A stretch of 64,000 bases of DNA from Tremella fuciformis. Taxonomy: Eukaryota; Basidiomycota; Tremellomycetes; Tremellales; Tremellaceae. Both the position numbers and the translations under genes were made by a program. The stretch lies in assembly GCA_032768795.1 (NCBI GenBank), contig CP136491.1, positions 2,046,001 to 2,110,000 on the forward strand, given 5' to 3'. Below are positions 2,243-22,596 of this stretch, piece after piece. Every line of letters begins with the position of its first letter. Position 1 is the stretch's first letter. The notes beneath the pieces are model-generated. The model saw only the letters and a program-made list of their open reading frames with translations, was not told the DNA's origin and searched no databases.

Positions 2243-3163
2243 ATGTCTCTTCACAGCTTTGGGCAGCAACAGATGACAGCAGAGCAGTCCTTAGACCGGC
2301 TTCAGAACCTAGCTGCTTCGTTGAGCAGACAACCAAGAATCATGCAGACAGCTGTTGATAGGTATCGTGCTGCATGTGTAGCGGCAGATACTTCAAAGTA
2401 TCCCACCAAGGCCGCAGGCAAGAAGATTAATCTCCGGAGATCATTGCAAGTTGTTCTGGCTGCAGTAGATGACGAAGCCAGTAAACTTGTATCTCTTGAC
2501 AGCCATGTCTATGCTCTCTACACAAAGGCCACTAATTCATCACAGCAAGATCCCCAATTCCCAGAGGTAGATTTGGCAGCACTGTTCAACGGCCACAAAG
2601 AGCTTCTAGAAGCACTTCAGATCTCAAGGGCTGCTAGTTGCCCCTTAGAGGTCCAAACAGCAGGGCTTGCTGCTGCAATTGAGGTGGTGACTGGTCTTGT
2701 CCACAGCCCAGGGCAGGGCACAGCTGAGTTGAGGCAAAATGCCCAGAGCAGTTACAGGATGGGTGTGGGAGACAAAACTCAGCTGGCTACACCAAGCACT
2801 GTGAGGCTGGACAACCAGTTGTCTGTACAATGCAGTGGACAATATTTGGTAGACGCTGCTAATACAACAGGGAAGGGAAAGTTGCCTGACCAGGCAACCA
2901 TATTGGGTGGGTCAGCTGCCGCCAGCTCTCTGACTCCAATGGCAACTTCAATGGGAAGCTTTGAGACTCAGACTCTCCACCATCCTGGCTATCACCCATC
3001 GGAGATCTATCCCCCTCATCCCAATGCTGTCCATCATCAAGACAATGTGACTTACCCTACTCTGGGTGGAACCAAGCCTTATTCTGGAGCAAATCAGGAT
3101 GCTCAAGAGCCCTACAATGATGAGAGCAGTGATTGTCCATATGAGTTGGACGCCACACAATAA
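2243..3163 (+). CDS. hypothetical protein, 306 aa
   Basis: I do not recognise this single-exon ORF. Residues about 1-140 look helical and amphipathic (repeated LxxL and AA patterns); the C-terminal half is Pro/His/Ser/Gln-rich and probably disordered, ending in an acidic tail. There are no transmembrane segments, signal peptide or cysteine motif. It lies between two inverted copies of the same LTR family, so it could be cargo or a decayed element gene. However, the right-hand LTR has its own target duplication, which argues that the two LTRs arrived independently. ATG at 2243 is the first in frame. An ORF of this length is unlikely by chance, but no family supports it. Confidence 0.45.
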   Translation: MSLHSFGQQQMTAEQSLDRLQNLAASLSRQPRIMQTAVDRYRAACVAADTSKYPTKAAGKKINLRRSLQVVLAAVDDEASKLVSLDSHVYALYTKATNSSQQDPQFPEVDLAALFNGHKELLEALQISRAASCPLEVQTAGLAAAIEVVTGLVHSPGQGTAELRQNAQSSYRMGVGDKTQLATPSTVRLDNQLSVQCSGQYLVDAANTTGKGKLPDQATILGGSAAASSLTPMATSMGSFETQTLHHPGYHPSEIYPPHPNAVHHQDNVTYPTLGGTKPYSGANQDAQEPYNDESSDCPYELDATQ

Positions 3164-4199: not shown

Positions 4200-5347
4200 G
4201 GAGTGTCAGTATCAGCCTCATAATTGGATTATTGATTACAGCCCGGGATTTCAGAATAATATATGTAGACAATCTGTTCAGCACCTGCTGTCCCAATGTC
4301 TGCCATCTCTGTCCAGTGCCAGAGGGGCACATATGACAAACAGCTGACCAGGGGGCTGCTGTACTTGGCAAGGAGCTGGGTGAGCTTGACAATCATGGGC
4401 AAGCGGGGAGGACTTGGCAAAGACCTTGGTAGGGGACTTGGTAGGGTACTTGGTGTTGCTGGCAGACCAAGGTATGGATCATAGTAGGCAAACCACGTGT
4501 CTGCAGAGAACAACAATTGGAAGCAGACTGTGGAATGTATCATGCGCCAAATCTCCTAAGTACCTGTTGTCTCTTGGTGAGCTCCGCAACCAGCACATTG
4601 AGTGAACAAACCCAACATCCGTGTCCGCCATGTGGGTTCCATGCTTTCACTACATCCATTGTGATGCCTTCATAGCAGCTGGATAGCACTTGTGTAGCAT
4701 TTGCAAAACACTTGCTCCACACCATTCATAGACCTTGCACAGCATTCTGGCTCGCAGTTTCATGGTTCTCAGTACATATAAGGGATATGAGTAGGCCTGT
4801 TTTCCACTGAAGACCTTTGCCCGGTCATGAAATCATGGTCACTCCGCTGTCTCTTCTTAATTTCCTGTCCCTCCAATATCCCAGACCATGTCCAGGGCAT
4901 CCTTATACACATCATTCTATTACACAGAGAGGCAAAACAGCAGACAATCAAGACGCCCAGTGTTTCTAGCCCAGTCCAGCTTGCCACTCATAGTAGTGAG
5001 CGTCCAGTCAGGTCCAGCCTAGCACTAGTCTATCCTACCACCAGCGATGAAGTCACAATACTTGACTCTTCTACAGGTTATGACCAAATTGCCAGTACTG
5101 GACCGCAAGAGGGGGTCTGATCATCTGCATCCCTTCATCACGGTTGCGGGAGAGGGTGTGCTCTTTGTATCCTTGTTCAATTACAAGCAGACTTGCATTG
5201 ATTTGGCAATGGAGACTCGGCAAAAATGCCCTGACATCCGGCGTTTTCGGCATTTCCTATGACGTCGATCGTACATGATCGATGGTCATCCTTTGCCAAT
5301 GCCGACCAGACTCTTTGTCCCTCACAGCAGGATGCAGCGAGAACGAC
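4200..5347. other. non-coding gap, probable promoter of the NYN gene
   Basis: No gene is supported. Around 4410-4455 there is a short imperfect repeat of ACTTGGTAGGG/ACTTGGCAAAG units. The rightmost few hundred bases probably contain the promoter and leader of the gene that starts at 5348. Confidence 0.5.
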
Positions 5348-7302
5348 ATGAGCGGCACTTCAATCGCGGTCCCAGCTGACAACTTGTCCCCTGATACGAC
5401 GACGGCCGACGAGCCAGATTGGGCAGCGTTAGGATTCGAGTCGCCCGTTCAGAAGGATCAAGCCAAGGACGCTCGCCAGACCTTCCCTATCTCACAAACC
5501 CGCCTGACCGGTCGAAGTATCTTCGACACGCCTTCGTCTGGTAGAGATCGGACACGACTCCCCCGCATTGGCAGCTATTCGTCCGCAGACTGGTTCCCCA
5601 AGAATCTGTCTCGCAGCGACAGCCATCAGCAAGATGATAGCATCGAGGCCTCCGGTACTCTTCGCAGAGCAGCTCTAGTCAATGACATCGCCATCGGCGA
5701 TGACCTACATCTGCTGTCAGACGGCTCACCTGCCTCAATTGATGTGCTTCACGGAAATGAGACGGACGCATCCTTGCCCCCGCCATCGACTTCAGTGCCT
5801 CGAAGGTCGACAAGCAAGGCGTACAGGATACAACGTCGCTTGGAGCGCATTGGTCGAGGTACGAAATACATTCAGACTCGCCTAGTGCCCAACTTGCACA
5901 ACGAGCGATGCAAAATTCGTCCCACATCTCCTCAGCAACCGGTCGACCCCTCTCCTTCGCCCAACACATTTCTCGCCGATCTCTATTCTCGATTCCCAGG
6001 CGCCGTAAAGCTTATTGAAGCGGCAACACGGCATCACAATGCCACCGGCGAGCTCCTCCCACCACACGTACTACCGCTATTCGAGAGACTCATTGATCCG
6101 AAAGAGGCGATCACTGCAGCTAATATCATCAGAGGACATTTCGACTTGCCTACCCTCGGTCAGCCAACGGATCAGATCGCCCTGCGTAGAGCCATGGCGC
6201 GAACGAGGGAGCGACTATATGGAGAGATCGCATCAGCTCTGATCCTCCCCGAGGCTCCCCCACCAGGACCTGCTTCTGTCAATGGCGATGAAGACCAGGA
6301 GATCCAAAAGCCCCTTGTGCAACTTACGACTTTCTCCCTCGAGGTGATGAAGCAGAGGCTGCCAATTAAGTTTGGCAAGGACAAGGCGGCTATCCGAGCA
6401 TTCTTGAGCAATCCTGAAGACGCGTATGGCGAGCAGGCGGGCCAAGTTGTATGGGAGAGAGGCGTTGGTAGCATAAAAGGTGCCCCTGGAGGATTCGCTG
6501 GCAAGGTGCTTGACACCGAGGGACTGCTTCATGTCTTCGTGGATCAGTAGGTTCAGACTCTTTCGTCGCGGTTCCGCGTGCTTACCTTTAGCTCGAACGT
6601 CCTGCATGGTCTCTTGCATACGCTGTACAACGCTCCCCCTGACGCCCTTCCTCCTCGCCACCTACGAACCCTTTCCCTCCCCTGCTTGTCCCTCCTGCTC
6701 CGACGGGGCAGACACACTCCTCCTGGCAGTCTCCATCTGGTGGCATCGTCTCCTCTCAAGCAAAATCTCGACCCTCTCGTATGCCTCGGGTGGGAAGTCT
6801 CGATACTCAAACGCGTCGAGGTGTATGAGGAGGAAGTCGTCGACGCAACAGCTACTAAGCTCGTCGACAAACCGATCTCCCAGCCCAACGCGACACATAC
6901 GGGACTGAGGCGGTATAGGGAGCAAGGGGTGGACGAGATACTGCATCTGAAGCTGCTTCTGGCGCTCAATCAGAAAGAGACGCCTGCTCCGAAGGGTAGC
7001 ACGGTTGTTCTCGCAACTGGAGATGCCAAAGGCGGACAGTTCAATCGAGATGGGTTCCTTGGCGCAGTGCGAGAAGCTCTCAAGCGAGGCTGGTCGGTGG
7101 AGCTGTGGTCGTTCAAGGCAGGTGAGTTCCCCATTCCGCAGAGACAAAAGTCCATTGACTAAACTGACTGTCAGGCCTCTCGCACTCGTGGTGGAATACC
7201 GCAAAGAAGGAAGGTTGGGGTCAGCAGGGTGGCCGATTCTCTATCTACTTCTTCGATGATTGGGCCGAGCAGCTCGTTGAATTCAGCGACGAGGACTACT
7301 AG
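5348..7302 (+). CDS. NYN-domain (PIN-like RNase) protein, three exons
   Basis: This is a predicted RNA-binding or RNase protein of the NYN superfamily (related to Limkain-b1/MARF1 and YacP-like nucleases). The N-terminal ~390 residues are mostly low-complexity Ser/Pro/Asp. The NYN fold begins where exon 1 joins exon 2 (intron 6547-6591) and reads VFVDHSNVL, carrying the first acidic catalytic Asp and the Asn. It continues to VVLATGDAKGG, the second acidic centre, and after the second intron (7122-7174) ends with LSHSWWNTAKKEG and FSIYFFDDWAEQLV. Both introns are about 50 nt and restore frame. The first in-frame ATG is 5282, but 5348 (MSGTSIAV) looks the more natural start. Being intact and GC-rich, it marks the return to ordinary genic sequence after the repeat zone. 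Confidence 0.82.
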
Positions 7303-7909: not shown

Positions 7910-7915
7910 TATAAA
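7910..7915 (+). promoter_or_regulatory. TATA box of first array gene
   Basis: TATAAA lies 119 bp upstream of the ATG at 8029. Similar boxes precede other array members at near-constant distance: 8956 (102 bp), 9721 (109 bp), 10527 (111 bp), 12044 (138 bp) and 12842 (98 bp). This indicates that each gene has its own promoter. Confidence 0.6.
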
Positions 7916-8028
7916 GCCCTGTCGACACCCCGCTATTCTCTCTTCATCCAACCCACCGACCAACTTTGTCAGCTTCAGTCGTACCACACCCAACCCACCG
8001 CCACTTCCGCAACAACTCATCCGACACG

Positions 8029-8289
8029 ATGGCTTGCGCCCACACCGCTCAGCCCGTCTGCCAGTACCTCGGCTGCTGCCCCGGCGACAGCTACGGCAAC
8101 AACAGCGGCTGTGAGTCCCTCTCTTGGCCCCCTTCGACGTCCTGCTCCTCGTTCCTCAATTCCCTGTGCTCGCAGGTTCTCTCCAGCCTCATCGTCATGA
8201 CTGTTCCGACTTGCTGACGGTCAGACGAGTGCGTCTCGATCACCATCGAGGACGTGCAGTACTGCCAGTACTGCGGCGCCTGCCTCTGA
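8029..8289 (+). CDS. small Cys-rich array protein A (48 aa)
   Basis: Unrecognised family; first member of a same-strand tandem array. Exon 1 (8029-8110) ends in CCPGDSYGNNSG, then a phase-1 intron (8111-8224), then an exon encoding ECVSITIEDVQYCQYCGACL and a stop. It has eight cysteines in 48 residues. The family spacing is C17-x12-C30, then C41-x2-C44, followed by G and one more Cys. No signal peptide or membrane segment is seen, so the protein is probably intracellular. The four core cysteines could hold a metal ion or form disulphides; this is inference. The TATA box at 7910 and the ATG context support the start. The intron is longer (114 nt) than in its paralogues. The gene is too short for ordinary gene finders, and its reality rests on the family pattern. 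Confidence 0.75.
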
Positions 8290-9057
8290 GCGACTTCGTC
8301 GCTAGGGCTGCTCGACGGGCCCTGCAATACCGCTCGAGAACTTTCGTACATGCCCAACAGCCGATCGCCACCCTCTTTCCTGTACGTAGTTAGATATGAG
8401 AAGCAAGAGTCGAGTCGAGTTGGAGTCGGAACAGGAGTCGAAGTCGGGGCCGAGTAGTCCGCGGAGATCATCTAGTGTTTGTCTACCTGAATGCGACGAC
8501 TGTTTTGCGAAGGTGTTGCCCATCTTATCTGTACCCAGCGACGGTCGGCCGCGAGGACAGCGCTTCCTCCAAGTGAGACAACCAAGATTTACAGTCTGCA
8601 GGCCGGAGGCGAGTCGCGGGATGCGGTGTCGCAGCTGGCGCTGGCCTTGTCTGCTTGTCCTGGTCGGCGAGGACAGCGTCGGACGGGCATGCCGAGCGGG
8701 TTGAGGGAGGGAGGCGGCCCCACTTCCAAACGTTAAAGATCACGCTTCTCGCCGCTCGGCCGGACACCCTGGTTTCGGCAATCAGTCTCGGACTGTCTCC
8801 ATGTCCTTTGCGTCTATCCGGCATTTGCGCAAACTTGGAAAGCGTCGATGCTGGCCGGTATGCCCGAGATTACGTTCGAGTGAGACGTTGTCCTGCAACC
8901 GAGTACCGGGACCGCAGCCTCTCTTTTTCGCGTCCCACCGTCCACGGCACAGAGATATAAGGCTGGAGCACCCCCCACGTACTGCTCTTACCCCCACCGA
9001 CCTCACTCATCTTCATCACCAATCCAGATTACCAGCGCATACAGGCATCCAGTCATC
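8290..9057. other. array intergenic region A-B
   Basis: There is no further array member. Positions about 8400-8452 hold a GAGTCGA/GAGTCGG-type short repeat. The TATA box for the next gene is at 8956. Confidence 0.6.
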
Positions 9058-9259
9058 ATGGTTCACTTCCACTTCGTCGGCTTGACCAAGCGGATCTACC
9101 GCCGATTCGGCGCCAGTCTCAGATGCCCGGCCCGTACAGATGGAGGCCGTGAGTCCGTCAACTTGGGCTGTCGCCTCATCTCTGACGCCAATAGCATGTG
9201 TGCTCGAGATCCACGTTGATGGGCGCAGGCGCTGCAGGTCATGTGGTCAGGACTGGTGA
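9058..9259 (+). CDS. small Cys-rich array protein B (50 aa)
   Basis: Unrecognised; second array member. Exon 1 (9058-9148) encodes a basic, aromatic N-terminus and ends RCPARTDGG. The phase-1 intron 9149-9194 starts GTGAGT and ends AATAG. Exon 2 reads PCVLEIHVDGRRCRSCGQDW and stops at TGA 9257-9259. Core cysteines are C23-x8-C32, then C43-x2-C46 followed by Gly, with DGR before the CxxC as in member C. It uses only the four core cysteines, which argues that these four define the fold. TATAAG lies at 8956-8961, 102 bp upstream. The function is unknown. A small metal-binding knuckle is the simplest idea, but no sequence match supports a named family. Confidence 0.75.
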
Positions 9260-9829
9260 GAGCGTTGCTCAACGCGCCTTATGTCCGTGCCGAGCCTGCA
9301 ACGAGTCTAGTCAGTCGTATAGCGTTGTGTCCAGTCAAGGGCGGTTCACAATTCATGTGCTGCACCAAATGCACCCGATGAACTCCCGTGCTTTGCCGCC
9401 CAGAGCCTTTTCGTCGTCGCGGTAATGCTCCCCGATTCGCAGCGAAAACTTGCACGGGCACTCTGCTTCCATATCGTGATGATCTTACCCGTCGAGCTTC
9501 CCATGAAAGGTAGAGGGGCCACTGTTCCATAGCAACGGAGTTCCGGTCAACAGTCCAAAAGGTCCACTCAAGGAGAGTCGTAGCTCCTTGTTGGTGACAC
9601 GCACGGGACCGAGCCGACGTCGTCAATGCATTCCTCGCCTTTCTGCCGGCTCACCATTGGACTAGACCGCAATCGAGCCGCAATACCGGCTTGGCCAGAG
9701 AGATATTCGGGCCATCGACCTATATATCGCTCATCTTGGCCCATCATACAGCCCCACCCGCGCCCCGACTCTTCCCTCTGCGTCCAGCGGCACCTTTCAT
9801 ACACCAATCGACAAGACTACGCCTCTACC

Positions 9830-10059
9830 ATGGTGTGCTTCCACTCCCGCAAGGTAGTCAATCACATCCCCGACTTGGTCAATCGCGACAATGACGAGGA
9901 GGACGAATGCATCGGTCGTATTGGAGGCGGGCGTGAGCCTTTCTCGCGGCTGGCAGGCGTACACGGCTGATGGCATGATTAGCCTGCGTCGGAGTCGAGC
10001 GGTCCGACGGCCGCGTCTTCTGCAAATACTGCGGGGTGATCATTCTCACTGAGGCGTGA
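9830..10059 (+). CDS. small Cys-rich array protein C (59 aa)
   Basis: Third array member, closest to B. Exon 1 (9830-9932) has an acidic run NDDNDEEDE-like before ECIGRIGGG. The phase-1 intron 9933-9982 follows, then exon 2 PCVGVERSDGRVFCKYCG plus a short hydrophobic tail, stop 10057-10059. Core cysteines are C27-x8-C36 and C48-x2-C51. The DNA at the CxxC (TGCAAATACTGCG) is identical in members D and G, pointing to recent duplication or conversion. TATATA sits at 9721-9726. There is no signal peptide. The role is unknown. Confidence 0.75.
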
Positions 10060-10637
10060 ACAAAGAGGCTTTTGCCAAGACGCTGCAACGCAGTACAGCC
10101 CCTGCAGTCCGGAAAGATGCTGGTGCATACAGTATGTGATGCCGATGCAGTCGACTGAGACCGAGAGTCGGCCATGACTCCACCGCAAATACCTCCTTTC
10201 TTGCTGCACATAGTACCTTCATCTCGGGGACACAAACTCTGGAATACCGGCTGGGTGGTCGGCCCCACACATCGACGGTGATATGAGTCATCTGCGTGAT
10301 CTCAGCATCGTTCTCCCGCCCATACTTACGTCGACCAAACACCGTTGCGTGAGAAAAACGCGAAGTCAAGCAGTGTGGAAACCCTTTTCCTCGCTCACTA
10401 AAGAGACAAAAGGAGGGTCCTGCGCTTTCAGATCTGACGGTATCGGATGGTCCGCACCCGGTTCTGACAATGCCTCCGGTCGGATCACACACCATAGGCG
10501 AGGCTGATGACCCTCAGTATCGCTGATATACAAGGCGAGCATGCCCACGCAAGCCTTCCCCGCCAGTAAAGGACGCAGTGCAGAAGAGATCCCTACGACA
10601 CCTCCCCAGCGAATCCCTATCTGACCCCGGTGTCGCC
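10060..10637. other. array intergenic region C-D
   Basis: There is no clear gene. A TATA-like box (GATATACAAGG) lies near 10525-10535, 111 bp before gene D. The region holds scattered ORFs on both strands without family motifs. Confidence 0.5.
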
Positions 10638-10856
10638 ATGAGCACTTTCCAGAATGTCTGCCCCGGGACCGCGACGGGTGTGAACAAAGGTAGTGAGTCT
10701 TGAGGAGGCCATTGCGCTCCTTACCCGATAACTTGGCTGACGACGCCAGAAAAGCACATCACCGTGTTCATCATTGGTGGCCTGCAGTGCAAATACTGCG
10801 GAAGGATCTGGGCAATGAGCCGAGCATTGTGGGGAGGGGAGAACGACGACGCCTGA
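10638..10856 (+). CDS. small Cys-rich array protein D (53 aa), Cys-to-His variant
   Basis: Fourth array member. Exon 1 (10638-10692) ends VCPGTATGVNKG. The phase-1 intron 10693-10749 is followed by exon 2 KHITVFIIGGLQCKYCGRIW and an acidic tail, stop 10854-10856. The second core position, Cys in most paralogues at the same spacing (C8-x12-), is His21 here. C32-x2-C35 is kept. A His at that place is a conservative change only if the residues bind a metal, so this member is indirect evidence for metal binding rather than disulphides. The TGCAAATACTGCG segment is shared with C and G. Confidence 0.72.
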
Positions 10857-11215
10857 GGAGTGCTGCGTCGGTCGAGGAAGTTGGAGACAACCTATTCATC
10901 AGTAATGCTGCTTGTGAGGCGATACATGTATGTGGAAGTACCGAATACTTGGCTTTCTGTTGCACTGGGCGGCGAGTGTCCCGAGTCCGGCGCCCTCCGT
11001 CCCAGAGATGTGGGACTGTAGTGATGCACGACTTTAGCTTGGCGGTGGAGCCGAGCAAGCTTGGAGCTGGGATGATGTCTACTGACGAAGACAATTGGCT
11101 GTGTGCTTAGGACATCGGCGAGCGCAGCTTTCGCCATCGTCCCCCCGTTGCACTTCCCTGTTTCTTCCCTCCTGGCCGCCCGCAGCGTTTCATACGGTCC
11201 ACGTTCACTTGCGAC

Positions 11216-11515
11216 ATGGCGCCCACTAAGAGCCCCCACCCATACGATATCGCCAACATGCACACTGTCAAGCTTGGCGCCCCGATCCCGTGTCAATGTT
11301 ACGATCACAAAGGCTATGCACACCAGAGCACAGGAGCCGAACCCGCCGATGACCTGCCCATCTGCGCGGGTAACTTTCAAGGCGCGAACAAGGGCAGTCA
11401 GTCATATGTCTGTCCGACCCAGCACAGCTAAGAAGCAGAGACCTGCGTGATCTGGACCGATCTCCAAGGCAAGACCAGCTGCTTGTACTGCCTGACCGAG
11501 TACACTGTCGAGTGA
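11216..11515 (+). CDS. small Cys-rich array protein E (85 aa)
   Basis: Fifth array member, with the longest N-terminal extension. Exon 1 (11216-11396) encodes two extra cysteines in PCQCYDHKGY and ends ICAGNFQGANKG. The intron 11397-11438 (GTCAGT donor, AAGCAG acceptor, phase 1) leads to exon 2 TCVIWTDLQGKTSCLYCLTEYTVE and a stop. Core spacing is C-x12-C, then C-x2-C, but the Gly that usually follows is replaced by Leu. Reading through the intron gives a stop at 11429-11431, so the spliced form is preferred because it restores the family pattern. I see no clear TATA box at the usual distance. Confidence 0.7.
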
Positions 11516-12181
11516 ATGGAGGGGCGCACCACAGTCTGCGGTCAAGCGACATGAGCCTCAGTAGTGACACGAAGTGAGATGAGGTGATGCATGTCTGTAT
11601 AACGTTCTGCTCTTCCCGCTGAGCCTGCGAGCATCATGGCCACTGACAAGCGGCCTTGCATGCCGATAATGCTTTGCCCATCCTCGCAGCGGGTTGGTCA
11701 TCACGAGTGTGGCACTTTTTTGTCGCCACCGATCGACGCTAGAAGCACGCTTCAAATCCGCCACATCCATTACCGACATAAACAAACACGTTGGTCCCAC
11801 TGTAAACAAGAGAAGTTTGAGAGACTCATTACCCCCGCCGCAGCCTCCGATCTGACTGCGACATCTCGGTTCGGAAAGGACGCGGCGCGTCAGTGCGGGT
11901 CGCTTGTGGAAAGAGAGGCATTTACGGTCGATTGCATCTTTGCTGGCCTGGGTGGAGCTTCTGTCCACGGCCTCATGACGAACCTCGTTATCGGCGTGGA
12001 TACGCCTCGGACAACAATCAGCCGTGATAGACATTGCTTATGATATAAGTGTTGAGCGAGAGCCCAAGCCGAGTAGCAAGACAGAGCTCCCCTCACCGTC
12101 CTCCCCCTCAGAGAAGTCCACTTCACCTGCTCGCAGCTGCGCAATCGCCCAGCTCTCTCTAGTCGTATATCCACTCGCACT
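11516..12181. other. array intergenic region E-F
   Basis: An open frame from 11636 (about 135 codons) lacks the family motif and is probably chance. A TATAAG box at 12044-12049 serves gene F. Confidence 0.5.
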
Positions 12182-12440
12182 ATGGCCAGGCAGCCTCCTG
12201 ACCCGAACGACCCCGGACTTGACGGTACCGTCTGTGACGGCGATGACTACGGCCGTAACAAGGGCGGTGAGTGCCCGCAAACCGTTTGGACAGGATTCCA
12301 CTGAAACGGCAGAGACGTGCAAGGAAATCGAGATCAACTACGTCGATGCCGACAACAACGAGTGGTGGGGCACCAAGTGTTACTGGTGCGACTGCATGAT
12401 CGAAGGAATGCGCATCGTCACCGACTCGGACAGCGATTAG
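12182..12440 (+). CDS. small Cys-rich array protein F (70 aa)
   Basis: Sixth array member. Exon 1 (12182-12266) encodes a Pro/Asp-rich start and ends VCDGDDYGRNKG, almost matching member A's ending. The phase-1 intron 12267-12312 is followed by exon 2 TCKEIEINYVDADNNEWWGTKCYWCDCMIEG and an acidic tail DSDSD, stop 12438-12440. Core spacing is C-x12-C, a long acidic/Trp loop, then C-x2-C with a third Cys two residues later, like A. It is strongly acidic overall, unlike the basic B. Such charge divergence on a fixed cysteine scaffold suggests varied partners; this is inference. Confidence 0.75.
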
Positions 12441-12939
12441 AGGGGTTACGGCGGGGCTCTGTCCGGTTCACCACTCCCCACTGTCCTGTACAAGCTATCC
12501 GAACGATGTATGAAGAGCCAAAAGTGTCGTCCGCCTGAGCATGCATGTTCATTGCTACGTGTCCGTACCCAGCTCAACCACACTTTTGTCGCCTCCGCTC
12601 CTCACCTTCTCGCTCGAAGTTGCTCCATTGCCGCGTGTTGGAAGAGAAGCCCCGACACCAAAGCCCCCTTGCTCAACACCGACATCCTCATCTCCGAACA
12701 GAGTTGTTCGCTACCGCGCCGGCTGGTCCGAAATGAGCTGCCTTGTGGAAACGGCGTGTAACCTCGTCACCGTCGCCGCGTACACAAGGTGGCGATTCGC
12801 GGAATGTCCGAAACGTCATGTGCATTCGCGATGACTGAGGGTATAAATTTAAGGCCAGCTGCACTGGACCCAGTGGCAAGCGACATATCCCCAGCTACGC
12901 TCCCTACAAAAGTCATCTCGAAGCCTCGAGGAAGTCAAC
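12441..12939. other. array intergenic region F-G
   Basis: There is no family motif. TATAAATTTAAGG at 12842-12854 is the clear promoter box of gene G, 98 bp before its ATG. Confidence 0.6.
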
Positions 12940-13368
12940 ATGAGCGGTCCGGGCGGATGCCTGCACCCCTTCTCGGCCTCCGACCGCATGTGTTCGCAGA
13001 ACGCATCTCGCGAAAACGGCGGCCGTACGTTCTGGCTGCGACATCCTGTAGCGATGATGGGCTGAAGCGCAGGCTGCATGTCCGTGCAGGTGCAGCGTGT
13101 GATGGGCAACGCCCTGTACAACGGCTGGGAGTGCAAATACTGCGAGGCGAGCATGGGCCCGTGGTGCCTGGTCAAAGAATTCTGTTCGGTCAATTACGAG
13201 CGTGAGTGCTTTCCGCTCCTGATCCGGTGTGTCTGATGAACAGGCGACTGTTGGGCGTCCATTGAGAAGGAGAACCGGCCGGACGGGTCACTGTGGACGC
13301 GGCAGAAGTGTTACTACTGCGGCAGGATTCTGTCCGAATGGGAGTGCCTGTTCGCCCCGCCGCGATAG
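12940..13368 (+). CDS. small Cys-rich array protein G, double domain (112 aa)
   Basis: Seventh array member, and the only one with two modules in tandem. Exon 1 (12940-13024) ends MCSQNASRENGG. Intron 13025-13072 leads to exon 2 (13073-13201), RCMSVQVQ...WECKYCEASMG, ending FCSVNYE. Intron 13202-13243 leads to exon 3, RDCWASIEKENRPDGSLWTRQKCYYCGRILSEWECL, stop 13366-13368. Both introns are phase 1, so each module exon is a symmetric cassette that can be duplicated without a frameshift. That explains how the second module arose. The first CKYC carries the TGCAAATACTGCG segment shared with C and D. The function is unknown. Confidence 0.75.
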
Positions 13369-13657
13369 TGATCTCATCGCGGTCGATCGCGGATTGTACG
13401 TACGCAGTATCCGGTGCGGATCAAAGAAGATAACACCGAAAATGTCGTACATTGCACATGCACGGTCAAGCGAGATTCGGTCTAACTCGACCGGGATGAT
13501 GAGATGGTGTGTGTCGGTCAGAGAAGTTTGCTTTGACTCCTTCAGTTCCGACTGCCCCCAGGTCTACCGTAGCACCTTCCTACCCTTGCTACCTTTGCTG
13601 CATTGCCGCCCCACCGTCGTGAACTTCTGCGCAGGCTTTCGAGAGTCCGACTCATCA

Positions 13658-13970
13658 ATGCAAGCCAGTCCAATGATCATCTGCCTCAACCGTTTGCGCG
13701 GCGTCGACACAAGGGGCACAGCCAGGAGCGTGGAAGCCGAAGAGGGCTGCAAGGGCGATGCGGCCGGGAATAACGCAGGCAGTGAGTCCAGGTCGCGGGC
13801 CGTGCTCAACGTCAGAGCCCTGCCGGAAGCTCTATCGAATGGACGGCACCAGGATCTGTCCCTTCTGCGGCAGGACCTTCTGGTCCTCTGACCGAATGCG
13901 TTCCGCTTCAATGAACCGTATGGCCCGTTGGGCGTCTGCGAAGGTATGTCTGTCTCTATCACGAGACTGA
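13658..13970 (+). CDS. small Cys-rich array protein H
   Basis: Eighth and last clear array member. Exon 1 (13658-13781, alternative ATG 13673) ends GCKGDAAGNNAG. The phase-1 intron 13782-13815 (34 nt, short but GTGAGT...CAG) leads to PCRKLYRMDGTRICPFCGRTFW. Core spacing is C-x12-C, then C-x2-C-G, with DGT before the CxxC. The frame continues past the module to a stop at 13968-13970. A possible further intron starts at 13946 (GTATGT) and would change the C-terminus, so the end is uncertain. No TATA box is obvious at the usual distance. Confidence 0.65.
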
Positions 13971-14360
13971 AGCTTAGCGTGTCAGGAATACGCCACAGGT
14001 GTCACCCTTTGAGGTGGTCCATCCTGCATCATTGTTAGGTCATACACGTCGTTGCCTTACCTGCCCATGATCACATTTCTCATGAAGTTCTCCGAGGGCT
14101 GCAAGCGCTAGAGTGTAATACAAACCTTCCACCCTTTATGTACGAGCCCCGTCAGAGTCAGCTCTCCTTATGTCCAAAACATGCGAACTTTGCAAATGTC
14201 TCAAAGGCTTGCTCCTATGTGTCTACAGGCTAGAGGAATTGCAAGCCAAGGGAGGGAGAAGAACCAAGAGACATCAGCGCAACTCCCTGAGAAACTCCCT
14301 ACCGTCTTTCGTCTTCCCCACACTCTCGCATACTTAGCCAAAGCAGACCAACATCGAACC
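13971..14360. other. gap between array and next gene
   Basis: I see no gene. This stretch is probably the leader and promoter of the gene at 14361. Confidence 0.5.
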
Positions 14361-15093
14361 ATGAGCCGCATGATTGCCCACTATGAAGGGACCGTGGAAT
14401 ACACCAAAGACGAGAGCTTTGATGCTAGCGACAAGGTGAGTCTCATGAGGGTGCCCCTCGTTCCCCTCCCCGTGCATTGCTCCAGGGTGTCACTGCCATG
14501 ATCACTGATTTTGTCAGAGGACCTGGGTCTCGCACTTTCACGGGGTATCTTGGTCAGCCAAGCGGGCGAATACCTGCACATGTCGTCTCGCACGCCCTAC
14601 CCCGGACGGCATGCAGTTCAAAGGTATGCGCTTTCATCTCATCAGGGAGAACCAGACGTATACCGGGTCCACGGTCTCTTTGCGCTCGGGCGATGGTGCC
14701 TCGGCAAATATTCGAATCAGTTGCAGCCCGGGGTGCAAGATTGTCTACTCGGTAGTTACCTGTGAGGGAAATGATGAACAGCTGTCCGGATCCAATTACG
14801 AGACATCCACTCTTCGACCTCGAGGTGTCATACCCGGTGTGACCCATGTTCAATCGTCTCTTCCGACGTGGCGAACGTTGCGAACTCTGCCTGGCTGGCC
14901 GGAGGAGGGTCCGCAACAACATGTTGTATCTGTACAGCCGACGGTTGGGCGGCTTGATATCATGCCACGAACAACGGTCATAGTGACCCAGCCGTCCCCC
15001 CATTGGCGGTTGGGACAGGGTTGTTTGATCGTGCTCGAGAGGCCGGCAGAGATCCCGAGTATCGGTGATGCCGGACTGCAGGAGGCACTATAA
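14361..15093 (+). CDS. hypothetical protein with YEGTVEYTKD N-terminus
   Basis: Unrecognised. Exon 1 (14361-14435, 25 codons) contains YEGTVEYTKDES. A phase-0 intron (14436-14517, GTGAGT...TCAG) leads to an exon starting RTWVSHFHGVSW, open to 15093. The first half has TCTCRL and a stretch resembling a small beta-rich fold (GSTVSLRSGDGASANIRI, SPGC, VVTCEG). The last ~90 residues look unstructured and may be mis-joined. The same design (GTV-x-Y-[S/T]-[R/K]-D, phase-0 GTGAGT intron, then R-x-[Y/W]-V) recurs in the gene at 16532, so the two are probable paralogues. The N-terminal exon pair is well supported, the 3' end less so. Confidence 0.55.
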
Positions 15094-15260: not shown

Positions 15261-16022
15261 ATGTCGCAACACGGTATCAAGGCTATCATCACCGACACAG
15301 GCGGGACTGTCTTCGACTGGCACACCGCGGTCGAGAGCGGATTTCGCGAGACTGGTCAACCCCGCGGGGTATCAGCAGACTGGTCGGCATTGACGAAGAC
15401 GTGGCGCAAGCTCTCGACCACACGGGTCGACAAGGGGCTGCCCGTTGCGGCCAGTGGACGTGTAGAGATGGACATGGACGACGTGCTGAGGGAGACCCTC
15501 ACACAGACGCTCGAGCAACATCGAATCACCGGCTTCACGGCAGAGGACGAGGCCAAGCTCGTGGCTTCGTGGCGAAACATGCTACCTTGGTCCGACATCC
15601 CTCGAGGAGTGGCCAGACTGCGCAAAGGTCTGATTGTCGCCCCATTCACCATCCTCAAAGCCGCCTTGGTTATCCAGGCGAGCAAGCTCGGGGACGTAAA
15701 CTGGGATGCTATCATCTCCTGTGAGATGATCGGGGTGTACAAGACCCATCCCACTACGTATGCCACCGCTCATAAGTGGCTGGACGTCGCCAAAGAGGAG
15801 ACCCTCCTCGTCACGACCCACAACAACGATCTCAAGGCGGCGCACAAATTCGGGATGAAGACGGCTTTCATTTATCGCCCGAAGGAGTGGAGTGACATCC
15901 CCAGTTTGGACCCCGTAAGCGCAGCAATGCCAGACTTCATGGCTGACGGATAGGAGCCTGCTCCGGAGGCCGATTGGGTCGCTCAGGATTTCGAAGATCT
16001 GGCTCGACAGCTGGGACTGTGA
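15261..16022 (+). CDS. haloacid dehalogenase type II-like HAD hydrolase
   Basis: This is a HAD-superfamily hydrolase like the 2-haloacid dehalogenase/epoxide-hydrolase-like type II group. The motif I nucleophile is Asp12 in ITDTGGTVFDW, where the family usually has DxFGTLxDW; the Phe-to-Gly change is unusual. A helical cap follows, then a motif II region, the motif III Lys in YKTHPTTY, and the motif IV region VTTHNNDLKAAHKFGMKTAFIYRPKEW. The frame meets TAG at 15951-15953, but 15915-15953 is a good 39-nt intron (GTAAGC donor, CTGAC branch site, TAG acceptor). Splicing joins DP to EPAPEADWVAQDFEDLARQLGL, the normal family C-terminus, stop 16020-16022. The substrate is unknown; a small halogenated or hydroxy acid is only a family guess. 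Confidence 0.85.
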
Positions 16023-16531: not shown

Positions 16532-17150
16532 ATGTCTAGCCCTGCGCCAACATCTCTCTTTGATGGCACAGTCTGGTATAGTCGCGACGATGTGAGTCCT
16601 ACCTGTCCGGTGTAGCTCGACTTCTGATGACCGATAGCGAATATACGTGCGTTCGTATCGAGCTCATCAGAATAGCGAGGGTCAGTGGGCCCCGATATGC
16701 CACGAGTTCTCCTTGGATGGGGAGCCGCTGAAGATCACACGGCAGGATCATCCGTCCCTGGCTTGGCCGGACGGGACAGCTTTGGAAGACCCGCCACTTG
16801 GCAAGGTGACCTACACTGATCTGTACAAGGTGACCTTGCCTGACTCGGACTCCTCGCTGACTGAGGGTGAGTCAGTCCTTCCGGGATGCACAAGGGACAT
16901 CACCATTGCAAAATCCGGCCCGATGATGAATTTTGCAACCCAAATCGAGGGAGGGAGCGCCATTCGCTGTCGACTCGATCAGATGCGGTCACAGATGAAT
17001 CAACGCGGACAAGCCGATATGGACAGCTACGTGATTCTCATGGAGAACAATGCAGAGGTCAAACCACAGGCAGATGCTCCCACTACCGATGCCAACAGCC
17101 CAAGAGGCAGTGTGTTCAGCTCTTTCCTCGCGCAATGCTGTTGTAGTTGA
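16532..17150 (+). CDS. hypothetical protein with FDGTVWYSRD N-terminus, 190 aa
   Basis: Unrecognised. Exon 1 (16532-16591, 20 codons) reads ...LFDGTVWYSRDD. The phase-0 intron 16592-16637 (GTGAGT...ATAG) is followed by RIYVRSYRAHQNSEG. The rest is soluble-looking with no membrane segment. It ends QCCCS, which loosely fits a C-terminal cysteine lipidation site (CaaX-like), though the middle positions are not aliphatic. It is probably a paralogue of the 14361 gene, on the other side of the HAD gene: exon sizes, intron phase and the GTV-x-Y motif agree, while the C-terminal parts have diverged strongly. Confidence 0.6.
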
Positions 17151-21634: not shown

Positions 21635-22307
21635 ATCGGGTGTCTGGGACAATCACATCCGACTCCGCCTCACAAGTTGATCAGACTGGCGGAGACAATC
21701 CTCTTATCATGTGGTTCAGAGCTGTACGCGTCGCTTTCATGTGTGTCTGCTTCGTCATGACTCGCATTTTTCATTGCATTAGTACTGGTGATCTCTTCCT
21801 CCACATCTGCCGCTGAGAAAAAAATGTCAATGCCAGGCATGATAGGGAGATGTTTGCCTCTGGTCGGTGAGCAGACAGCTGACTGTAGTTGCGAGCTTGC
21901 TCGTCTCTCAGAGCATTGGACTCCTGAGTAACAGCAAAGCACAAACGGTGTAAGGAGAAAGCTATGGGGAAGACGCGCTGTTCTGTAGTTTATCCTTTGC
22001 CATGCCCTACTATGATCGTCCAATGTCAAATCAGACAAAGGGAAGATTTGCAAAGCTTGTAATTTTTGAGAAGGCAGGACAACTCGTGCGCGTTGCAGAT
22101 GTATTTGATGCAACGCTACGCGCAGTTTGCGTTGAGTGTGTCGCTTAGCTGACAATGGACGCGGCTCGAATCAGTGGAGCTGTCTTTGTATTGTTTGTTC
22201 ATGAGCTCGGTGACGTCTTTGAGTGTTCTCCCGTGGTGGCGTCAATTGTGGCGCGTAGCAGATCTCTCAGTTTGACCGAGGTGAGCATCTTCAAGCACGG
22301 ACCTGAG
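21635..22307. other. upstream region of family member 2
   Basis: No gene is seen. The last five bases (22303-22307, CTGAG) are the left target duplication of the miniature retrotransposon. Confidence 0.5.
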
Positions 22308-22366
22308 TGTTACAAGAAGGCAATCGATGCCTTGACACTTGACTGGCCGGTCACTTTTGTTGAACA
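22308..22366 (+). repeat. TRIM left LTR
   Basis: A 59-bp terminal repeat with TGTT...AACA ends. The primer-binding site abuts its right end. Confidence 0.9.
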
Positions 22367-22537
22367 GATTAAAAGTCCCAAGTCTCCGCCTTGGGCGTGG
22401 CAGACAAAGGCGCAGGTTACAAGGCGCGGGTTCAATCCTCACACCCGCAGGAATGCCGCCTGCAGGGGTAGGCGCATGGTGTTGAACACGTGGCTTTCCA
22501 GGTTCCGAGAGCATCAAGAGCATCTCTCGAGGGGGAG

Positions 22538-22596
22538 TGTTACAAGAAGGCGATCGATGCCTTGACACTCGACTGGCCAGTCACTTTTGTTTAACA
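22538..22596 (+). repeat. TRIM right LTR
   Basis: A 59-bp terminal repeat preceded by the purine tract at 22528-22537. It matches the left LTR except for about four substitutions. Confidence 0.9.

Follow-up and report, generated by a model that had tools for sequence, protein, structure and literature searches.

A tandem array of small, intron-split cysteine-module genes in Tremella fuciformis and its putative zinc-ribbon-like products

Layout of the array and gene models

The window analysed here is the whole 64,000-nucleotide stretch C2:2046001-2110000 (GenBank contig CP136491.1, plus-strand coordinates) of the Tremella fuciformis genome (28.1 Mb, 11 contigs), and it carries an array of eight small genes, G1 to G8, all on the plus strand between window positions 8029 and 14012. 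Spliced reconstruction gave a complete, stop-free, in-frame product for each gene, with sizes of 48, 51, 59, 53, 85, 70, 112 and 92 amino acids (aa) from G1 to G8, in agreement with an earlier note on this DNA that had described eight plus-strand genes of 48-112 aa. The eight genes hold nine modules of ~30-45 residues, G7 carrying the unit twice (G7a and G7b), and all share the core pattern C-x(7-12)-[C/H]...C-x2-C. The core intron separates the loop of the first ligand from the second ligand and is in phase 1 in 9/9 modules.

The first gene, G1 (8029-8289), consists of exons 8029-8110 and 8225-8289 around an intron of 114 nucleotides (nt; GTGAGT..GGTCAG), with a TATA at -119. G2 (9058-9259; exons 9058-9148 and 9195-9259; TATA at -102) and G3 (9830-10059; exons 9830-9932 and 9983-10059; TATA at -109/-107) have short cores, CPARTDGG and CIGRIGGG respectively, each continued across the intron by PC. 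In G4 (10638-10856; exons 10638-10692 and 10750-10856; TATA at -111) the second ligand is His. G5 (11216-11515; exons 11216-11396 and 11439-11515) could also use an acceptor 3 nt away, which would start the exon at 11436, and its 200 nt upstream are without a TATA. G6 (12182-12440; exons 12182-12266 and 12313-12440; TATA at -138) ends in an acidic tail, and the two-module G7 (12940-13368; exons 12940-13024, 13073-13201 and 13244-13368; TATA at -98) has two phase-1 introns. The last gene, G8 (13658-14012), comprises exons 13658-13781 and 13816-13943 and probably 13986-14012, again with no TATA in the 200 nt upstream; the possible extra intron at 13944-13985 (phase 0) would move its end from 13970, where the array had been closed previously, to 14012. 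A TATA box at -98 to -138, as reported in the earlier note, was confirmed in six of the eight genes, against a background for this interval of 5.9% (P ~1e-6, the interval having been chosen post hoc).

The motif C-x-G-[DN]-x2-G-x-N-[KSA]-G, originally ascribed to exon 1 across the array together with its shortened forms, is exact on reading in four of the eight genes (G1, G5, G6 and G8), while G4 has one substitution, G7 a loose version and G2 and G3 the short forms. Donors at the core introns are GTGAGT in 6/9 cases, which upholds the shared phase-1 intron with a usual GTGAGT donor, the others being GTGAGC (G3), GTCAGT (G5) and GTACGT (G7a). First-pair spacing is 12 in G1, G4, G5, G6 and G8, 11 in G7a, 8 in G2 and G3, and 7 in G7b, the last of these adding to the spacings of 8, 11 and 12 listed before. 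The first, third and fourth ligand cysteines are invariant in 10/10 aligned module rows and the second ligand is Cys, or His in G4, the single His case noted earlier. The proteins contain 3-11 Cys each, an odd count in 5/8 (3, 5, 5, 5 and 11), and their isoelectric points range from 4.1 to 10.1.

Some smaller features were also observed within these genes. In G1, a stretch coding for CQY-x-G-x-C is present in both exons (8058-8080 and 8262-8284) at 83% DNA identity, perhaps a small internal duplication. Possible extra ligands lie close to the N-terminus as C-x-H in G1 (MACAH, 8029-8043), G3 (MVCFH, 9830-9844) and G7 (CLH, 12958-12966), and as H-x-H in G2 (MVHFH).

Specificity of the pattern and coding signal

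A scanner was written for the shared architecture, comprising an in-frame ATG, a Cys 5-13 codons ahead of the intron, Gly as the last codon before it, a phase-1 donor, an intron of 30-130 nt, C or H among the first four exon-2 residues and then C-x-[YFWSHI]-C. Since its rules were set with the genes already in view, the scanner serves as a specificity control. In the window it returned one donor per gene for 8/8 genes on the plus strand and none on the minus strand, and no match was found on either strand of the 200 kb flanks. On one strand of the shuffled window, a match occurred in 1/20 order-1 and 2/100 order-2 Markov shuffles. The second module of G7 breaks the Gly rule and was recovered in a relaxed scan only.

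A CTNA branch-type site, a feature not used in the scanner, starts 11-16 nt before the end of 9/9 core introns, compared with 8.1% of 34,753 AG sites, over an interval set after looking. Codon usage was likewise no part of the scanner rules and agrees with the gene models. The codon score totalled +75.7 bits in frame versus -130.0 and -133.4 bits in the other two frames, and by gene the own frame was best in 7/8, G2 being the exception. GC content was 0.78 at third codon positions, compared with 0.53 at first and 0.50 at second positions. The array is real.

Matching database proteins and age of the family

Profile searches over 5.8 billion proteins, whose sensitivity was bound by shared exact words and by length, identified two relevant proteins. 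P0001 was the sole protein at E<=1 in the first search and is identical to spliced G7 letter for letter (112/112 residues), on a 1303-nt contig from the source 'lgn'. P0002 (E 9.4e-5; source 'ena', 10,115-base contig) shares 34/35 core residues with G8, made up of 11/11 in the first-ligand loop and 23/24 in the second-exon core with the junction residue left out, and both of its tails are unrelated by eye. Where G8 has a GTGAGT intron, P0002 reads through an apparently unspliced intron (SEF..., which fits A followed by GTGAGTTY at the junction), so that gene calling in the database seems not to splice and the spliced P0001 is most likely derived from complementary DNA (cDNA), with one case for each step. 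By its sequence, P0002 is taken as the ortholog of G8.

Module cores of the paralogs are 15-40% identical to each other (values for G7b being affected by misalignment of its first ligand in the 11-row alignment), which against the 34/35 of the ortholog core suggests that the paralogs probably diverged long before G8 and P0002 split. Judged by this single ortholog, the members appear to be old and each of them conserved, and the G8 core looks to be held by purifying selection; the description of the family as diversifying was thus not sustained. The earlier note had further looked to spliced transcripts at the predicted junctions and to recurrence of the pattern at orthologous places in related genomes. 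The former are represented by the protein equal to spliced G7 on a short contig, for one gene of the eight, and the latter by the G8 ortholog in another sequence, known from the protein alone.

Extent of the family in the genome

Dropping the Gly rule and scanning 264 kb on both strands gave six donors at five places outside the array. One of these, at C2:2036173 on the minus strand and 17.8 kb from G1, encodes MSLDLTNCSGNAMGQNIH before and QNCVVQIFKATDAAGYTVELYLCAYCQQVIWDWHRVEPPR after an intron of 50 nt. By eye, the intron has CTGA 11 nt from its end, and a TATA is absent from ~200 nt upstream; from the sequence, this is a probable ninth family member. The remaining four places look like chance. 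The family was introduced as a tandem array, and eight genes do stand in a row, but with this probable member at a distance it is not confined to the array.

The genome was also searched in six frames with G1, G4, G5, G6, G7 (as P0001), G8, the ninth member, a consensus and P0002, G2 and G3 not being among the queries. Gene queries matched themselves, P0002 matched both exons of G8, and the consensus matched exon 2 of G3 (E 0.015). Two weak matches fell in unrelated frames, one (E 0.089) in what we take to be a dienelactone-hydrolase gene and the other (E 0.011) in what is presumably a recyclin-like gene. No gene query recovered a sister gene, and the negative result of this search is therefore uninformative on other arrays. 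A DNA search of the genome, in which counts are lower bounds, did not find a second copy of the array.

Family, motif and literature searches

None of the eight proteins had a Pfam match above the cut-off, and the best Pfam E-value over all module rows was 0.0012. NCBIfam gave two rows only, in the better of which one member matched the family of the biotin synthase auxiliary protein BsaP at E 0.0072. Sub-threshold profile matches were weak and mostly to zinc ribbons and fingers. Rfam returned 0 matches at the gathering score, neither window 5282-6550 nor G8 had a match among plasmids, and a literature search contained no report of such a family among the matches listed. Fungal CAAX pheromone precursors end in C-x-x-x, and on reading 0/8 proteins have a Cys fourth from the C-terminal end. 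That no family could be named for these genes agrees with the lack of a convincing match in the Pfam, NCBIfam, PDB and fold searches. The suggestion that gene finders could miss genes of this size is likewise borne out by products of 48-112 aa from short exons.

Neighbourhood of the array

The gene content of the window is that of a fungus. Among 10 large frames scanned, five match Pfam at E<=0.001, including a fungal-specific transcription factor domain, GH3, NEDD4/Bsd2 and an ammonium transporter. Beside the array, two small genes (14361-14646 and 16532-17150) have in common a GTGAGT intron with [DE]GTVxY[ST][KR]D shortly before it, towards the end of exon 1, and R[TI][WY]V where exon 2 begins. 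They may be another small pair of paralogs; the model of the first is unsure in its later part. At window 15261-16022 lies a haloacid-dehalogenase-type gene with one 39-nt intron, whose 70 listed relatives are 42-75% identical and include one named bacterial (Angustibacter), making a bacterial origin possible on sequence grounds. None of these 70 relatives lies on a contig of 10,115 bases, the length of the one carrying P0002, in a check of synteny. Lower-GC stretches flank the array on both sides (1-5 kb and 18-24 kb). Within the left one, the 921 bases at 2243-3163 were single-copy in a genome search, and a lower-GC stretch holds two copies of GTGTTACAAGAAGGC[AG]ATCGATGCCTTGACACT at 22307-22339 and 22537-22569.

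Proposed function and alternative explanations

The interpretation preferred here, with a probability of roughly 0.6, is that the array consists of old paralogs which would encode stand-alone, intracellular, zinc-ribbon-like mini-proteins, probably binding adaptors or regulators. The four ligand positions (Cys, Cys/His, Cys, Cys) would coordinate a single zinc ion and stabilise a beta-hairpin as part of a zinc-ribbon-like fold. One zinc per module is a fairly likely outcome given the ligand pattern, in which three invariant cysteines accompany a Cys or His as second ligand; the His of G4 can serve as a metal ligand but not as a partner in a disulfide, which favours zinc, and the weak sub-threshold profile matches, mostly to zinc-binding folds, point the same way. 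No signal peptide is evident, which would place the proteins inside the cell, and they leave no space for an enzyme. They would instead bind nucleic acid or protein partners as single-finger adaptors or regulators, and the loops and charged tails peculiar to each member would tune it individually. Since 6/8 genes carry a TATA-like site, separate expression is probably possible. This picture of intracellular single-module binding proteins with individual tails is tentative and argued in part by analogy. On balance, the array appears to belong to an undescribed fungal family of single-module, metal-binding mini-proteins whose genes are split by an intron and whose first-ligand loop is long. Such genes would occur in old arrays, with cores near-unchanged between species and tails turning over, and would be missing from family libraries because they are overlooked or wrongly spliced by gene finders.

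Several observations weigh against this interpretation. The best row of the PDB profile search (E 0.0099) rests on single knuckles, rows covering the full hairpin reach E 0.09-0.22, and none of this is significant. AlphaFold models were weak, with a mean predicted local distance difference test (pLDDT) score of 46 for G7 (P0001) alone and 64 for P0002 with exon rows, in an alignment without exon 2 of G6 (aligned wrongly), exon 1 of G2 and G3 and all of G7; residues 81-90 of G7 form a predicted hairpin at pLDDT 80. Three fold comparisons of these models gave no significant match. Neither profile search matched a database protein for G1-G6, within their limits of exact words and length, one ortholog is known (P0002, for G8), and the P0001 contig is probably cDNA by inference from its shortness and the spliced form. 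In a study of haloarchaeal proteins, 4/10 characterised C(P)XCG mini-proteins are reported not to bind zinc (PMC10716476).

The splice sites might have been chosen by the reader in such a way as to draw a motif from random open frames, a fair prior worry with short exons and free site choice, and the codon score does not favour the frame of G2. Given the scanner controls, the branch-type sites, the codon bias, a database protein identical to spliced G7 and a conserved G8 ortholog, this is extremely improbable and is regarded as refuted for the array as a whole, although single members could be pseudogenes. Secretion of the products as disulfide peptides of effector or antimicrobial type would fit a common effector pattern, small Cys proteins in tandem array, but by eye a hydrophobic N-terminal signal sequence is not evident in the eight proteins, a His can stand as second ligand and Cys numbers are odd in 5/8, making it very unlikely. 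Metal buffering or storage, in which the proteins would scavenge zinc or copper in a metallothionein-like role, draws on their small size, cysteines, multiple copies and TATA-like sites. Metallothioneins have very high Cys content in CxC/CC clusters, and the array proteins have only 3-11 Cys in 48-112 aa with a single site per module, as well as conservation at positions other than Cys (Gly, Asn) and a spacing of hairpin length, neither of which a buffer needs, so that buffering is unlikely.

Descent from the zf-CHCC zinc finger of the complex I subunit NDUFS6, duplicated and reused, seemed strong by eye. The ligand order C, H, C, C is compatible with the modules when written as C...H/C...C-x-Y-C-G, but His takes the second place in G4 only; sub-threshold PDB profile rows reached E 0.21-0.22, and 10/11 modules beat at least 88/100 decoys in which all non-Cys/His letters were shuffled, G6 being the one that did not. 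However, with the first half shuffled and the CxxC knuckle kept, 147/200 decoy totals reached the observed total, so that the signal is that of a generic knuckle, and membership was dropped after this control. The CDGGGG-x-LGHP box is invariant in 7/7 rows of a zf-CHCC alignment (the genome's own gene, two PDB NDUFS6 chains and four bacterial proteins) and present in 0/11 modules; hhalign joins 11 columns only, at a probability of 35.6%. Pfam gave no zf-CHCC (PF10276) row for the eight proteins at E<=1, nor was PF10276 among the 7 families listed for 10 module rows at E<=10, where HMMER filters drop most matches above 0.1. A genome-wide search for the family matched at one other place, on contig C1, and the genome's own zf-CHCC gene has introns at other positions (the last junction by eye). 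Descent from zf-CHCC is thus quite unlikely. The modules may nonetheless function along similar lines, as a clip with four ligands.

If the family is as proposed here, fungal gene catalogues lack an entire group of small proteins that look regulatory, and for a technical reason: almost all exons measure 55-181 nt and the domain is interrupted by an intron. The mechanism is modest; the family is one not found in the libraries and literature listings searched. The locus offers a ready test set of eight to nine paralogs, two of them with outside support, for finding other members.

Comparison with known systems

The modules resemble zf-CHCC (PF10276; NDUFS6/NUMM) in the C-x-Y-C-G knuckle, a Gly-rich first loop and, with a second-place His in G4 alone, broadly in ligand order, and differ in having no GHP box, Pfam match or signal outside the knuckle and in the placement of introns. 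Sub-threshold profile similarity over the hairpin and CxxC knuckle likens them to the zinc ribbons of bL32, Elf1 and Rrn7; those ribbons have two CxxC knuckles, whereas each array module has one, and the scores are not significant.

The closest working analogy, by description and not by sequence relation, is with the haloarchaeal zinc-finger mini-proteins such as HVO_0758 and HVO_2753, which are stand-alone, <70 aa and many per genome, making up 43/282 small proteins (PMC10716476). Both sets are stand-alone, with a putative zinc site and no enzyme domain. The haloarchaeal proteins carry two C(P)XCG motifs within <70 aa, whereas the array modules have one CxxC knuckle each and a C-x(7-12)-[C/H] first pair, often with Gly/Asn, are split by an intron and stand in a fungal tandem array, with 4/8 proteins below 70 aa and G6 at 70. 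In the haloarchaeal study, 12/16 deletion mutants differed from wild type, indicating that single fingers can matter (PMC10716476), and the present locus would allow the role of single stand-alone zinc modules to be asked in a eukaryote, alongside this comparable study in archaea.

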